56,495 nt of DNA, from positions 1 through 56,495 of the IMG/VR virus record IMGVR_UViG_3300021962_000129; one strand, 5' to 3'. This document shows, one piece after another, positions 2,179 through 10,224 of this stretch. Source of the stretch: a virus. Positions within the stretch are counted from its first letter, which is position 1; every line of letters starts with the position of its first letter. The notes under the pieces were generated by a model. The model was not told the origin of the DNA. It searched no databases and saw only the letters and a program-made list of their open reading frames with translations. The translations under genes and the position numbers were made by a program.

Positions 2179-2502
2179 ATGATTAATGTTAAGTTTCTAA
2201 AAGAATGTTTCAGGCAATGCCTATTTCAACATTTAGACGAGGTTAGTCTGGCTGTTGGTAGGGGAGAAAAATTACCTGCCAGCAAAGGTGCTGGATTAAC
2301 AGCCAAAGGTCGTGCTAAATATAATAGAGCACACGGATCTAATTTAAAAGCTCCTGTTACGGGTAAAGTTAAAAAAGGTAGTAAAGCAGCTAAAAGACGT
2401 AAATCTTTTTGCGCTAGAATGCGTGGAGTTGTAAAGAAGTCCAAAAATGCCGAAAGAGCACGCGCCTCGCTTAGACGTTGGAAGTGTGGTGGAGTTAAGT
2501 AG
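2179..2502 (+). CDS. DUF6321-like basic protein
   Basis: A 107-aa, strongly Lys/Arg-rich protein. The blocks 'GAGLTAKGRAKYNRAHGSNL' (37-56), 'RRKSFCARMRG' (73-83) and 'SLRRWKC' (97-103) match my memory of the DUF6321 family, which is common in phages and some bacteria and has no known function. The charge suggests nucleic-acid binding; that is inference. It lies on the strand opposite its neighbours, diverges from thyX and ends with an 8-nt tail-to-tail overlap with the polymerase core gene. I see no strong Shine-Dalgarno before the ATG, so initiation may be weak. Confidence 0.75.
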   Translation: MINVKFLKECFRQCLFQHLDEVSLAVGRGEKLPASKGAGLTAKGRAKYNRAHGSNLKAPVTGKVKKGSKAAKRRKSFCARMRGVVKKSKNAERARASLRRWKCGGVK

Positions 2503-3577
2503 ACTCAAATTCTACCTCCTCTCCCACCCCAAACGAAGGTCCTACAAGAACTTCAATTTCCAGTGGGACACTAAAGCTAAATCCAAATTTCTCACGAATG
2601 TAAGGGTACTCAGTCATTTCATGATGCAAGACTTTAAGAACTTTCTTAGTCTCGTCTTTTGGACAGATAATTTCTACAGAGTCGTGGACTGTAGCAACGA
2701 TCTTAGCCTTGAAACCATTCTCCTTAAATCGTTTATTCAATCCAAGGATGCAGCTAAGAATTGTATCACTGGCTGCGGATTGAACAGTAAAATTTAGTCC
2801 CTGTCTAAGTGCTTGCTTTTGGACTGACTCAACGCGAGCATTAATGTTAGGAAGGTTCCTACGCCTACCGAAGATAGTGTAAGCATAACCTCTTTGCCTA
2901 ATATGCTCGAAAACGTGTTCCATGTAGCTTGGAACACCCGGAAAAGCTGCCATCCATCCATTGATAATCTCCGCTGCTCTCTTCTGAGGAATTCCCCTCT
3001 TACGAGCAAGGGTATAGTCTGACCCACCGTATACCACCAAGAAGGAAACTTCTTTTGCAATCTGCCTCTCCTCCTTAGTGATCTTGTCCATAGGCTTTCC
3101 AAATGTTACAGATGCAGAGTAAGTATGCAAATCCATACCTTCTTTAAAAGCCCGAGCCATGTTTCTTTCTCTGGCTAGGTGAGCCAAGATACGGAGTTCC
3201 ATGCTTTTCATGTCAGCGGTAATAAAATCCCAACCTTCAGGAGCTACTACATAACTTCTAATATTTACTGCACCACCTTCTCGGGGTAGAGTATGGAAGG
3301 AAACTCCCATCGTCTCATCAGCAGAGTACCCTGCATTAGACAGTCGGCCTGTGGCTGTACCATCAAGACGATAATCTACATAAATCTTATTATGTTTATT
3401 ATACTTGATAGCTGTATCCACACTTTTGATGTAAGTGTTGTATAACTTCTCTTCGGATCTAAGCTCTAAAAATTGAGTAATGAAATCCTGAATTTTAATA
3501 AGCTCTGCATCGGACTTCTGAGCTAGCACACTGGCACTGATGAGCTTATTTTGTTCTTCTTGCGTTCTTTTTCCCAT
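2495..3577 (-). CDS. Family A DNA polymerase, polymerase core (third part of a split enzyme)
   Basis: A 360-aa protein holding the whole palm/fingers core of a Pol I-type polymerase: 'TATGRLS' at 74-80, motif A 'ADMKSMELRILAHLA' with catalytic D122, motif B with R161, K165, F169 and Y173 in the same spacing as E. coli R754/K758/F762/Y766, and motif C 'VATVHDS' with H288-D289. The residue after motif C HD is Ser where Glu is usual. The N-terminal thumb and exonuclease regions are missing here but are encoded by the two genes just upstream. The start overlaps the preceding ORF by 32 nt in another frame. An AGGGA about 5 nt before the ATG gives it its own ribosome-binding site, so it is probably made as a separate subunit. 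Confidence 0.88.
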   Translation of the reverse strand: MGKRTQEEQNKLISASVLAQKSDAELIKIQDFITQFLELRSEEKLYNTYIKSVDTAIKYNKHNKIYVDYRLDGTATGRLSNAGYSADETMGVSFHTLPREGGAVNIRSYVVAPEGWDFITADMKSMELRILAHLARERNMARAFKEGMDLHTYSASVTFGKPMDKITKEERQIAKEVSFLVVYGGSDYTLARKRGIPQKRAAEIINGWMAAFPGVPSYMEHVFEHIRQRGYAYTIFGRRRNLPNINARVESVQKQALRQGLNFTVQSAASDTILSCILGLNKRFKENGFKAKIVATVHDSVEIICPKDETKKVLKVLHHEMTEYPYIREKFGFSFSVPLEIEVLVGPSFGVGEEVEFEST

Positions 3578-4094
3578 TAGATTCCCTACGAGCTATTTCA
3601 TCCTTGATCTGAGTTAATAATAGATCCAATGCCTCAAAAGAGGTAGATGGTTGTCCTTTATCAGTAAAGATTGGTGGATACAAGTGAAAACCATAATTTT
3701 CAGTATCTTCAATCCAATCTTTCTCACTTTTGATTAGTGAATAGAATACTCTAATTAGATCTTGAGTAGATCCCATGTTCATATCTTTCTTTACTTCCGA
3801 GAAAGAATACAAAGCATCTTCGGTATCTATAATTTTATCTTTGAGTTGCTTTCCTAGGACCTTTAGCTGATCTTCAGAAATAATAAGTCCATCAAGCTCG
3901 ACCTCGGTAAAAAAAGTGATGGCTGGAGCCATCAAACTTTCATACACCTTAATCATTTCTAACTGACTTAGCTTATCATTAAGTACTTCATAAGATTTAT
4001 AGGTAAAGTAGCTATCCAGAGCGTTACCTTTAGCCATTTCAGCTAAAGGCATATCACCCCATACAATCGATTTTGGATTAGTTACTGTTAACAT
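3546..4094 (-). CDS. Family A DNA polymerase, exo III plus thumb segment (second part of a split enzyme)
   Basis: 182 aa. Residues 16-38 ('LAEMAKGNALDSYFTYKSYE') match the Exo III region of Pol I-type 3'-5' exonucleases, with D27 as the likely metal ligand and Gly23 where Tyr is usual. The rest corresponds to the linker and thumb, ending in a 'GQPSTSFEALDLLL' stretch that normally precedes the polymerase core in an unbroken enzyme. Exo I and Exo II are in the gene upstream and the core is in the gene downstream. The start overlaps the upstream stop (TAATG) and has no good Shine-Dalgarno, which points to termination-reinitiation. It ends 32 nt inside the core gene, in a different frame. Confidence 0.75.
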   Translation of the reverse strand: MLTVTNPKSIVWGDMPLAEMAKGNALDSYFTYKSYEVLNDKLSQLEMIKVYESLMAPAITFFTEVELDGLIISEDQLKVLGKQLKDKIIDTEDALYSFSEVKKDMNMGSTQDLIRVFYSLIKSEKDWIEDTENYGFHLYPPIFTDKGQPSTSFEALDLLLTQIKDEIARRESNGKKNARRTK

Positions 4095-5125
4095 TAGGAT
4101 GCAAGCTCATGAGGGAAATAATAGTTGACGAGATCCTTGAGAGACTTAGGAAGGTTCTCATCCACAAGATGCTGCATAATCTTAGTATCCCATACATTGA
4201 TCATTTCTCCAACGCCAGCACGCTTAAAGAACTTTAAGTCGAATTTTGCATTGTGTAGGATCTTTCTGACGGGCGATGCAAAGACCTTACTCATGAAAGA
4301 AACTATCTCTGCCCTATCAACATCATTAAAGGGTGTTTCCTTATGATGGAATGGGATCACATAATTTTGATACTTTCCATTAGACTTAAAAGTTAATGCA
4401 ATCGTGAGAAGCTTGTCCGTAAGAAAGTTCAAACCCGTAGTCTCAGTATCAATAGCTATGAAACCTGAATCTAATGGAAAGGGTATGGATTTCAGCTTAC
4501 TAATAGAGTCCACAAGAGTATAACTGAAACCAGAAGTATTAACTTTCTTAAGTACGAATTCATTGACGGCATTCTCGATATCGGTTTGAAATAGGTAGCG
4601 GTTCTTTGGTTCGACGAGGACTTGGTATGGGTGGTAGATGGGGATAAGAGTGTATTCATGTCCTAATTCCGTTTTTAAGGGCATAGAACGCCCTCTCTTC
4701 TGCTCAATTCCAGTCTTCTTGGTTAGCATCACAAGGGGCAAATTACCACACCCAAAAACGATTCTGGGCTTTACTTTGTCTATGGTAGCTTCAAGATGCT
4801 TACGACAGATATCTTTATCCTGCTTAGACATATCATCAATCTTGACCCTAGGGCACTTAACTGCAGCGGTAAACTGAACTTTATCCAATATCTTACCAAA
4901 GCCACAGGACCCAAACACATCTAAAATAAGATCGATATCATCGTCTGTAAAGGGGGCCACGCCTCCATCGGATTGCATCTTAAAGGAGTCTGAGACCATT
5001 AAAATCTCAGACTCATGAAGTTCATTATAATCCATAATGGAATGCATTGGAAGGTTCTTTCCAAGAATGGAGCAACCTTTGCAACCATCATAAGTTATTT
5101 CGTACAAGTCTTTTAGAGAGTTCAT
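4094..5125 (-). CDS. UDG-like domain fused to 3'-5' exonuclease (first part of a split family A polymerase)
   Basis: 343 aa with two domains. Residues 10-190 look like a type-4/5 uracil-DNA glycosylase fold: C15-x2-C18 and C91-x15-C107 match the [4Fe-4S] cysteine spacing, and 'IYHPYQVL' (H165) matches the C-terminal active-site loop. The usual GExPG loop reads 'VSDSFKMQSDG', so glycosylase activity is uncertain. Residues 220-335 are the DnaQ-like exonuclease: Exo I 'AIDTETTGL' (D226, E228) and Exo II 'HNAKFDLKFF' (N292, D296). Exo III is in the next ORF. A UDG-like front end on a family A polymerase is known from SPO1-type phages. Transcribed divergently from the sigma-like gene, with only 14 nt between the starts. 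Confidence 0.82.
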   Translation of the reverse strand: MNSLKDLYEITYDGCKGCSILGKNLPMHSIMDYNELHESEILMVSDSFKMQSDGGVAPFTDDDIDLILDVFGSCGFGKILDKVQFTAAVKCPRVKIDDMSKQDKDICRKHLEATIDKVKPRIVFGCGNLPLVMLTKKTGIEQKRGRSMPLKTELGHEYTLIPIYHPYQVLVEPKNRYLFQTDIENAVNEFVLKKVNTSGFSYTLVDSISKLKSIPFPLDSGFIAIDTETTGLNFLTDKLLTIALTFKSNGKYQNYVIPFHHKETPFNDVDRAEIVSFMSKVFASPVRKILHNAKFDLKFFKRAGVGEMINVWDTKIMQHLVDENLPKSLKDLVNYYFPHELAS

Positions 5126-5139
5126 CTATAATTAATGTA

Positions 5140-5487
5140 ATGCCTAATTACATTGATAATAAGAAATTTGAGAAGCTAATTAAAGAGCACTGTAAAGGTC
5201 GGCGCAAGAACGAGGCAGAACTATTCCACCTGTTCGACCTTCTTATTTCCAATATCATAGACTCTTTTCACTTCAAAGTCGATAAGGAAGATGCAAAACA
5301 AGAGTGTTTTGTTCTAGTACTAAAAACGCTTAAGAACTTTAAGCCTTCTCAAGGCAGCGCATTTAATTATTTTACGACAATAATCGTTAATAATCTCAAA
5401 CTAATTTTTACTAAACGTAAAAAATATTCTGAGAAAATTAACGATTACTTTGAGATTAAGTACGGTCAGAGTCCTAGTTCTCTGTAG
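5140..5487 (+). CDS. gp55: Late sigma factor, gp55-like (putative)
   Basis: 115 aa from the ATG at 5140. An in-frame ATG at 5047 would run back into the divergent polymerase gene, so I reject it. The central part, 'DAKQECFVLVLKTLKNF' followed by 'SAFNYFTTIIVNNLKLI', resembles sigma-70 region 2 as found in T4 gp55-type late factors: core-RNAP-binding and -10-recognition helices without regions 1, 3 and 4. T4 gp55 is about 185 aa, so this one is short. Family knowledge: gp55 recognises TATAAATA late promoters, and one exact copy lies at 20291-20298. It overlaps the 3' end of the facing gene by 22 nt. Alternative: an unrelated helical DNA-binding protein. Confidence 0.62.
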   Translation: MPNYIDNKKFEKLIKEHCKGRRKNEAELFHLFDLLISNIIDSFHFKVDKEDAKQECFVLVLKTLKNFKPSQGSAFNYFTTIIVNNLKLIFTKRKKYSEKINDYFEIKYGQSPSSL

Positions 5488-5816
5488 ATATCACCGTTAT
5501 TTAGATGAACTTGAACATTGTTATCTTTAACAGTTACTAAAGTTGGGACTCTTGTAAGTTTAGACTTTATGTCCAATGCTTCTCTCATCATTTGAGTCCC
5601 ATCAGGAGTATCCCAAGTGCTTACAACAAAAACATCTCTTGTTGCAACTGGATCTTTATCTGACATAGACTCTAAAGTCTTCAACAAATTTTTACAAACT
5701 TCATCCCAATCTGAAACAATTAAAAAAGTAGACTTAATTTCTTTAGTGGCTAGATTGTCTAAAACCCTCTCTAAAGAATCGTGGTTTCTAAGATAACGAA
5801 TGTTAAAATTGATCAT
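5466..5816 (-). CDS. Thioredoxin-fold-like small protein (putative)
   Basis: 116 aa. The pattern of beta strand ('FLIVSD'), helix with a single Cys41, strand ('DVFVVSTWDT'), helix, then 'RVPTLVTV' with a likely cis-Pro at 91, resembles a thioredoxin fold. There is no CxxC, so it would not be a normal redox enzyme; the fold could serve as a binding module. This is a weak assignment from pattern only. It sits 4 nt after the gene upstream (5821-6282) and converges on the sigma-like gene with a 22-nt overlap. Confidence 0.5.
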   Translation of the reverse strand: MINFNIRYLRNHDSLERVLDNLATKEIKSTFLIVSDWDEVCKNLLKTLESMSDKDPVATRDVFVVSTWDTPDGTQMMREALDIKSKLTRVPTLVTVKDNNVQVHLNNGDIYRELGL

Positions 5817-5820
5817 TATT

Positions 5821-6282
5821 TCACTGAACTACTGGTGGCTGATCTGAATTTGGCTTCTTTTCGCCTTCTTCAGTTGAGTCTTTAACCTCAACAATACCAT
5901 TATCCAAAAGATCTTGATCTGTAGGCATCTCTGGTACAATTATTGAGTCTGTGGCATCTTGAGTTGAGTTTCCGTAAAGCTCCTTCTCAAGTTTTTCAAT
6001 GTCCACACCTTGTTCAAGGAGTTGCTTCCTAACATTCTCATCCTTAAGAGATTGCTTCGCCATCTCTGCTAGTTGATTGTTAAGGGCACCAACTCCGTTG
6101 AAGAATACTTGCTTATAGAAAGTATCCTCATCAACTTGAGGTGGCTTAATTTGACTTGTCCAATTTTTTAAAGCTTGTGCTTCGTCTTCAGAAAATTTAA
6201 TTGTTACTTTCATACGTCCTCTAGTTCTATATTCAATTTTGGCTTTAGCCTTATTACTATTTAGATAAAGCTTTTTACCCAT
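5821..6282 (-). CDS. Hypothetical protein, 153 aa
   Basis: Not recognised. The N-terminal 20 residues are basic (Lys/Arg-rich), the middle is helical ('LKDENVRKQLLEQGVDIEKLEKELYG'-type pattern, about 80-105), and the last 45 residues are acidic, Pro/Ser/Gln-rich and likely disordered. No signal peptide or membrane segment. It is transcribed divergently from the nuclease gene at 6314, with starts about 30 nt apart, and co-transcribed with the thioredoxin-like gene. Confidence 0.6.
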   Translation of the reverse strand: MGKKLYLNSNKAKAKIEYRTRGRMKVTIKFSEDEAQALKNWTSQIKPPQVDEDTFYKQVFFNGVGALNNQLAEMAKQSLKDENVRKQLLEQGVDIEKLEKELYGNSTQDATDSIIVPEMPTDQDLLDNGIVEVKDSTEEGEKKPNSDQPPVVQ

Positions 6283-6313
6283 GATTCTCTATGATAGTAA
6301 AAGTGGTGAAATT

Positions 6314-6832
6314 ATGGAAGACAATTTTGATTTTTCGAGCTTAAAAAAGAAGAAACGTAAGAACAGTCGTACAAAAGGTAATGCGTTTGAAAGAAAAGTT
6401 TGCGCTTTGCTGAACGAAAGATTTGAAACTACAGATTTTAACAGGTCTCCGGGTTCGGGCGCGTTTGCTAATACACATAGGCTACCAGATCACTTAAAAG
6501 TTTACGGGGATCTTATCGTCCCTCAGGGGTTTCAATATATTATTGAATGTAAGAAAGGATATAATAAAGTAGGGTTAGGAAGCTTATTTAATACTAAATC
6601 AGAGTTCTATGATTTTATCAACCAAGCCAAGAGAGATGCAAGCAAAATCTCAAAAAAATGGATGGTTATTTTTCAACAAGACAGAAAAGATACACTTGCA
6701 ATATTTGAAGATTTATATTTAAAACATACAGCTAAAGATGTTACTTATTTAAATTTTAACAATAGCAGTTTGTTAGTTATGAGGCTGGAAGATCTGTTAA
6801 AAATTACTACTAGAGATTTTTGGTTTAGCTAA
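6314..6832 (+). CDS. PD-(D/E)xK endonuclease, Holliday-junction-resolvase-like
   Basis: 172 aa from the ATG at 6314, which has a GGTGA Shine-Dalgarno 5 nt upstream. An in-frame ATG at 6281 overlaps the divergent gene's own start and is less likely. Catalytic pattern: 'KGNAFERKV' (E26), 'GDLIVP' (D66), 'IIECKKG' (E78, K80), i.e. E...D-x11-E-x-K, as in archaeal Hjc and related phage resolvases. The basic N terminus (10-22) suits DNA binding. Likely role: resolving branched or packaged-DNA intermediates. Other PD-(D/E)xK nucleases cannot be excluded. It ends with an 8-nt convergent overlap with the 896-aa gene. Confidence 0.7.
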   Translation: MEDNFDFSSLKKKKRKNSRTKGNAFERKVCALLNERFETTDFNRSPGSGAFANTHRLPDHLKVYGDLIVPQGFQYIIECKKGYNKVGLGSLFNTKSEFYDFINQAKRDASKISKKWMVIFQQDRKDTLAIFEDLYLKHTAKDVTYLNFNNSSLLVMRLEDLLKITTRDFWFS

Positions 6833-9515: not shown

Positions 9516-9531
9516 AACTTATTATAGAAAT

Positions 9532-9567
9532 AAAAAAGGAGCCTATCTAAAAATAGATAGGCTCCTT
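9532..9567 (-). terminator. Rho-independent terminator after the tail-tube gene
   Basis: A perfect 14-bp stem (9536-9549 with 9554-9567) and 4-nt loop. Read on the minus strand it is followed by six U (complement of A at 9532-9537, partly within the stem base). It lies 22 nt after the tube-gene stop and separates that transcript from the 896-aa gene. The perfect stem could also act weakly in the plus direction, but the U tract favours minus. Confidence 0.9.
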
Positions 9568-9588
9568 AGAACGTTAATTTTAGTTAAA

Positions 9589-10224
9589 TCAGTTAGGGAA
9601 GAAACCTGTGGTTAGGTTAGCTCCCTCGTTTCTAATTCCACTTTGGAACATATCAATGAAGTCATACCTAAAGGTACACTCAATTGTATGGAAGTCATTA
9701 GTTCCATAATTATGCTCTCCAATGTTAACCTCTATAGGGAACACACCTATGAAATCTACATATGAATAAGGTGTTAATGTTCCATCATATTGAATCAATC
9801 TTACTTTTTCTGCTTTAAAACTCTTGCTAGCTGCAGCACCATTAGTGATTGGAGCAGAGTAACCAGTTAAAGGATCGTAAGCACAGGCTCTAAACCAAGC
9901 AAACAAGTTTGAACCAGTCTTGCTGGCGAATAAGTTATCGAAGGTAATCTTCAACTCATTCATATTGCTCTTGCCGGGATAGAAGTACCTGTCATTTAAT
10001 CTATGAACTTCGATTGGCTCTATTTTAGGGCCAGTAGCTGCAACTTGTTTGGCAGCTACGCTCATTTGTCTGATACTAAGTCCTTCTGCACCTTGTGGGA
10101 AGGTAAATTGAACTTCAAATTGATAAGCTCTTACTGAATCTAGCCCAGTAGAAAGTTTAGGTAATCTTGTTTGATTATTTGCTAACGCATTTCTTTCTGA
10201 AGCTAACCTATTAGATATTGCCAT
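9589..10224 (-). CDS. gp19: Tail tube protein (gp19-like)
   Basis: 211 aa. 'YQFEVQFTFP' near residue 34, a 'MNELKITFDNLFAS' strand-turn-helix in the middle, 'PYSYVDFIGVFPIEVNIG' and a final 'HTIECTFRYDFIDMF' follow the T4 gp19 pattern (163 aa in T4). It forms the inner rings of the contractile tail around the tape measure. The gene follows the sheath gene after 6 nt and has AGGAG 11 nt before the ATG. A strong terminator follows, fitting a gene whose product is needed in many copies. Confidence 0.9.
   Translation of the reverse strand: MAISNRLASERNALANNQTRLPKLSTGLDSVRAYQFEVQFTFPQGAEGLSIRQMSVAAKQVAATGPKIEPIEVHRLNDRYFYPGKSNMNELKITFDNLFASKTGSNLFAWFRACAYDPLTGYSAPITNGAAASKSFKAEKVRLIQYDGTLTPYSYVDFIGVFPIEVNIGEHNYGTNDFHTIECTFRYDFIDMFQSGIRNEGANLTTGFFPN

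Follow-up and report, generated by a model that had tools for sequence, protein, structure and literature searches.

Three open reading frames cover one family A polymerase

Few enzymes are as conserved as replicative polymerases, and a cut through a catalytic site of such an enzyme is usually expected to be lethal. The locus analysed here raises the question of whether three adjacent open reading frames (ORFs), P1, P2 and P3, are the parts of a single DNA polymerase and, if so, how that enzyme is made. The ORFs lie on the minus strand of an IMG/VR record of 56,495 bp, analysed in its entirety (the window), which also carries genes of a contractile-tailed phage encoding sheath, baseplate wedge, head protease and a gp23-like major head protein. 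Their coordinates, together with the 1-nt (TAATG) and 32-nt overlaps between successive ORFs, had been proposed in an earlier sequence-only reading and were all borne out (Table 1). Against the NCBI full-length PolI model of 889 positions, P1, P2 and P3 aligned to positions 286–430, 449–555 and 576–885, respectively, with no overlap. Judged by sequence, the three ORFs together cover one family A polymerase.

Table 1. Features of the polymerase locus in window coordinates; all counts are among the matches listed
Feature	Position	Strand	Evidence or conservation
P1, 343 aa: UDG-like domain and Exo I/II	4094-5125	-	Pfam, PDB profile, AF2/Foldseek
P2, 182 aa: Exo III helix and most of the thumb	3546-4094	-	Profile match to Klenow chain; AF2
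P3, 360 aa: thumb end, palm, fingers and N-terminal extension of ~25 aa	2495-3577	-	PF00476, 3e-75 (Pfam)
Cut 1 (P1 to P2): TAATG stop-start, between Exo II and Exo III	4092-4096	-	1-nt overlap in 54/101
Cut 2 (P2 to P3): 32-nt overlap within the thumb	3546-3577	-	Length and frame vary in relatives
Exo I D226xE228 (P1)	4442-4450	-	D and E in 100/100 members with letters
Exo II D296 (P1)	4238-4240	-	D in 101/101
G23 at the site of the Exo III catalytic Tyr (Klenow Y497) (P2)	4026-4028	-	Klenow alignment; clade conservation
Exo III D27 (Klenow D501) (P2)	4014-4016	-	D in 101/101
Motif A D122; E127 also invariant (P3)	3212-3214	-	101/101
Motif B R171...K175...F179...Y183G184 (P3)	3026-3067	-	101/101
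Motif C H298 D299, then S300 (P3)	2681-2686	-	H and D in 100/100 members with letters
Small protein, thioredoxin-like by eye	5466-5816	-	Adjoins sigma-like gene; 26-46% conserved in several relatives

P3 matched the Pfam family of the polymerase core and has the residues that define family A (PolA), namely the D...E of motif A, the R-K-F-YG of motif B and the HD of motif C. P1 matched both PF01612 (1.8e-15) and the UDG family PF03167 (5e-6) in Pfam, and its profile matched the family-4 UDG 4zbx (7e-17) and Klenow chain positions 6–120 in the PDB. The UDG-like domain spans approximately residues 13–186, with four cysteines of the Fe–S type, and the AF2 model of P1 (pLDDT 84) retrieved a family 4 UDG using Foldseek (4e-9). 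When P1 was modelled alone, its C-terminus (residues 316–343) was poorly predicted, which would fit an absent partner rather than demonstrate one.

P2 alone had no match in Pfam. A profile of P2 homologues aligned with Klenow chain positions 160–295 (E 1e-17), a stretch that takes in the Exo III helix and the greater part of the thumb. Foldseek searches with the AF2 model of P2 (mean pLDDT 86) returned mostly PolA matches, none of which had a significant E-value; we therefore regard the sequence profile as the better evidence.

The split is shared by a clade of uncultured phages

Single-protein scans of IMG/VR and genome contigs retrieved no relatives, whereas alignment-based scans of IMG/VR did, yielding loci 40–80% identical to P3 to which a profile of each piece was then applied. 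As the search patterns were located in P3, the split itself was not selected for. We obtained at least 101 loci with all three segments, some of which are near-copies, so that the counts characterize a sample rather than a census. The sequence-only reading had named relatives with one continuous ORF as the test of the split. Among the matches listed, none of the 101 complete loci had a single ORF; 90 had both cuts and 11 had the first cut only, with P1 followed by a fused P2+P3. Outgroup loci from phages and IMG/VR were nearly all single-ORF with the same segments. The split clade is monophyletic, forming one side of a branch with an SH-aLRT of 100. The split is known from a large assemblage of phages, uncultured and mostly aquatic; it is ancient and stable, and it occurs widely among such uncultured phages with a capsid protein of the T4 type.

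One clade member (L192/L136) is a 130,604-bp contig from the single-cell genome Prochlorococcus sp. AG-409-P03. The cell was possibly infected or phage-carrying; the contig provides an independently sequenced case and is a hint, not proof, that Prochlorococcus is the host.

These relatives bear directly on whether two assembly indel errors broke a single gene. The two frame changes do cancel, as such an error would allow, but the same cuts recur in independent assemblies at 40–80% identity, including the Prochlorococcus contig, and the long ORFs outside the polymerase locus are intact in the window. Sequencing error was rejected because the relatives carry the same cuts, and its probability is negligible.

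Among the matches listed, the first cut is present in all clade members, while the second is found in the near clade and in L038–L040, the sister of the two-ORF group. A likely history begins with a single ancestral chain of UDG-Exo-Pol type, like those of SPO1 and SM1, in which one cut would have separated Exo II from Exo III and another would have fallen in the thumb. For the second cut, re-fusion of P2 and P3 in one subclade and two independent thumb cuts are equally parsimonious. Both three-ORF groups have an extra N-terminal segment in P3 (ISxSVI...EL versus IYQKVI...EL) that the fused P2+P3 proteins lack, and this shared extension favours re-fusion from an ancestral three-piece state. 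We conclude that P2 and P3 probably re-fused in one branch, a preference that parsimony, being tied, does not itself provide.

The three genes are translated separately

P1 and P3 are read in one frame of the window and P2 in another, and the ORFs overlap, an arrangement from which programmed ribosomal frameshifting (-1 at cut 1 and +1 at cut 2) could make a continuous polymerase. In approximately 40 of the 101 listed loci, however, cut 1 extends over 172–3732 nt and contains other genes, many on the opposite strand, indicating that frameshifting or splicing is not the general explanation. Cut 2 contains an intervening gene in 4 of the listed loci, and its overlap differs in length and frame relation among them (-8 in 57, -4 in 13). 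The N-terminus of P2 (MLTV...W) is also conserved in relatives, and P3 is preceded by Shine–Dalgarno-like motifs. Frameshifting is thus very unlikely.

The motif ahead of P3 was found at 70 of 90 loci among the matches listed, versus 323 of 2160 internal control ATGs, in agreement with the suggestion that the core has its own Shine–Dalgarno sequence. Ahead of P2, a similar motif occurred in 34 of the 101 listed loci; there, TAATG coupling dominates, as had been proposed for the middle ORF, and the 1-nt P1/P2 overlap is present both in the window and in relatives (Table 1). The variable overlaps and the whole genes within the cut, some of them on the opposite strand, show that P1, P2 and P3 are translated separately.

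The genes found in cut 1 encode diverse proteins, including glutamine synthetase (L038–L040, L045 and L050), ThyX (L045 and L046), a saccharopine dehydrogenase-like protein (L041), a PDDEXK protein (L043/L044) and a 2OG-Fe(II) oxygenase (L138), while cut 2 of L033, L034 and L036 contains a dNMP-kinase-like gene. A conserved, opposite-strand gene for a lipoprotein-like membrane protein (SSCSTIKHAVGGA...) lies within cut 1 of many relatives (L017, L018, L022, L144, L154, L170, L177, L179–L181 and L183).

In L015, an HNH endonuclease gene lies exactly in cut 1. The earlier statement that no intron or homing endonuclease separates the pieces therefore holds for the window and fails for this relative. 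A homing-endonuclease origin of the first cut is accordingly possible, although one case cannot show it. The same gene, and the introns and split inteins that interrupt other phage polymerase genes (PMC11878797, PMC6892783), are what would recommend rejoining of the pieces via an intron or split intein. Yet the 13 loci with gapped cuts (138,933 bases) had no Rfam intron match at gathering thresholds, the end of P1 and start of P2 had no added sequence of intein length that could be split-intein halves, and both fall no more than a few residues from where PolI sequence is expected, marked by a stop and a start codon. Together with the opposite-strand genes in the cut, these results make rejoining highly improbable.

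The first cut divides an exonuclease that lacks its tyrosine

As claimed from the window, the first cut falls between Exo II and Exo III, with Exo I/II in P1 and Exo III in P2. Of the residues that define a DEDDy exonuclease, the DxE of Exo I, the D of Exo II and the D of Exo III are present, spread over P1 and P2, while the YX3D motif of Exo III lacks its Tyr. The assertion that all catalytic motifs are kept was thus correct for the exonuclease D, E, D and D and for polymerase motifs A, B and C, and incorrect for this tyrosine, which is replaced by Gly. Among the matches listed, the position is Gly in 101 of 101 clade members; the single-chain outgroup, unlike the split clade, keeps Tyr in 29 of 30 alignable relatives. 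In other polymerases, loss of the Exo III Tyr weakens the exonuclease and need not abolish it. Its clade-wide replacement suggests that proofreading may be altered or lost, and the exonuclease of the clade may be weak or dead.

The UDG-like domain of P1 also departs from its family. The catalytic Glu of GE(A/P)PG and the Asn of TNxVKC, which characterize family-4 UDGs, are D and A, respectively, in the window. Among the matches listed, the Glu position is mostly D in the clade, with E in 20 of 87 near members, and the Asn is absent from clade members. Though these catalytic residues are mostly gone, the four Fe–S cysteines are kept in 84 of 84 listed near-clade members with letters at these positions; in the far clade, they are lost.

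A probable polymerase built from three gene products

Genes commonly decay by being split, and this background is the argument for a decaying pseudogene in a phage that uses the host polymerase; nothing in our data points to one. We estimated dN/dS in close pairs and obtained values of mostly 0.02–0.12 for each of P1, P2 and P3; in the closest pair (L012/L129), the values for P1 and P2 were higher, with very few changes. All three pieces are under purifying selection, which rules out a pseudogene, and the catalytic residues are invariant in the 101 loci among the matches listed, across a deep tree. We consider decay extremely improbable.

Each of the 11 clade records of 67–131 kb contained one PF00476 protein and no PF00136 (family B) or PF07733 (PolIII) protein, although the records are possibly incomplete and a second polymerase could be missed. 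With no other recognised polymerase in these long records, the enzyme is probably replicative.

We consider it very likely that P1, P2 and P3 are separate genes whose products join non-covalently as the family A replicative polymerase of a phage whose capsid protein is T4-type (gp23-like). In such an enzyme, P3 would supply the polymerase active site, P2 would contribute both the Exo III side of the 3'-5' exonuclease and the bulk of the thumb, and P1 would give the Exo I/II side and the UDG-like domain. As the cut runs through the proofreading active site, the parts probably must find each other to make one working machine. Physical assembly, polymerase activity and a composite P1/P2 proofreading site are what we infer from the data above.

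It is conceivable, although rather improbable, that P2 and P3 alone are the polymerase and that P1 stands outside proofreading, the exonuclease having been lost with the Tyr-to-Gly change and P1 having a structural, DNA-binding or glycosylase-like role. The Gly at the Exo III site in all 101 listed members would be explained in this way, as would the separation of P1, which among the matches listed is a distinct ORF in every member, up to 3.7 kb away, and remains so in the far clade, where P2 and P3 are fused. However, on either side of the cut, none of the four exonuclease carboxylates varies among the matches listed, and P1 is under purifying selection, neither of which is predicted by neutral exonuclease loss.

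Within the three-product polymerase that we favour, a bolder and on balance unlikely proposal is that two separately translated proteins together form the proofreading site in trans, that this site does its work without the canonical Exo III Tyr and that P1, by its supply or dissociation, could switch proofreading. If true, the family A enzyme would contain a proofreader, P1, that can be detached.

Comparison with known split polymerases

The order of UDG-like domain, 3'-5' exonuclease, thumb and palm/fingers is the same in SPO1 gp31, SM1_037 of Pseudomonas phage SM1 and the enzyme of Lactobacillus phage LpeD. Each of these is one polypeptide, in contrast to 0 of the 101 clade loci among the matches listed; the SPO1 polymerase gene contains an intron and a homing endonuclease.

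Split phage polymerases are already known. In the T4-related phages 25 and 44RR, the split pieces gp43A and gp43B co-purify and the polymerase is active; the split site holds a homing endonuclease or IC-UTS, and a homing-endonuclease origin has been discussed for split T4-type genes (PMC2988022). The likeness lies in the division of a replicative polymerase among separate genes, but gp43A/gp43B is a family B enzyme in two pieces, described for a few Aeromonas phages. The OM43 phages MEP401 and MEP402 have a family A DNA polymerase in two ORFs, and their split is kept in a metagenomic group (PMC10580990). There, the cut falls within the polymerase domain and a small ORF separates the two pieces; the exonuclease is unbroken. 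Rhodothermus phage RM378, the analogue that had been named for our locus, is a T4-type phage and does have exonuclease and polymerase in separate ORFs. The parallel breaks down in that its enzyme belongs to family B and not family A (p092, PF00136; p024, PF03104), with genes ~57 kb apart and the exonuclease whole in one separate ORF.

A separate case outside the clade is that of Vibrio phage D69 (VPHD69_0209, VPHD69_0207 and a C-terminal frame), which combines a family A polymerase with UDG and has an Exo II/Exo III cut with ORFs in it. D69 differs in keeping the Exo III Tyr and in its second cut, which lies between motifs B and C and not in the thumb. At positions 2695–6574 of D69 (L122, OZ195729), at least three frames encode UDG with Exo I/II, Exo III to motif B, and motif C; the cuts contain a 181-aa ORF as well as small ORFs, and the annotation reads 'DNA polymerase' twice, with hypothetical proteins.

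A full-text literature search, incomplete in its coverage, returned no description of the clade, its three-way split or the exonuclease cut. In the clade, nature supplies enzymes of two and of three pieces with which to test how polymerase and proofreader assemble, whether a DEDD exonuclease can do without its Tyr, and how homing elements or gene traffic can make several genes from one. It also carries a warning for annotation, as PolA surveys requiring one long ORF miscount it.

Surroundings of the locus

The polymerase genes are flanked by genes for ThyX, an SbcD-like phosphoesterase, a weak sigma-region-2-like protein and a PDDEXK nuclease, in an order mostly kept in relatives. The small ORF that resembles a thioredoxin by eye (Table 1) gave no convincing match in a family search. 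We considered it as a thioredoxin-type processivity factor acting at the thumb, as in T7, and saw neither a convincing family match nor any such thumb insertion; as a lead only, it could be a polymerase accessory factor. Elsewhere in the window, positions 9527–9606 on the minus strand gave an Rfam match to the PyrG leader that was below threshold (E 0.014) and are possibly a terminator hairpin between gene blocks.
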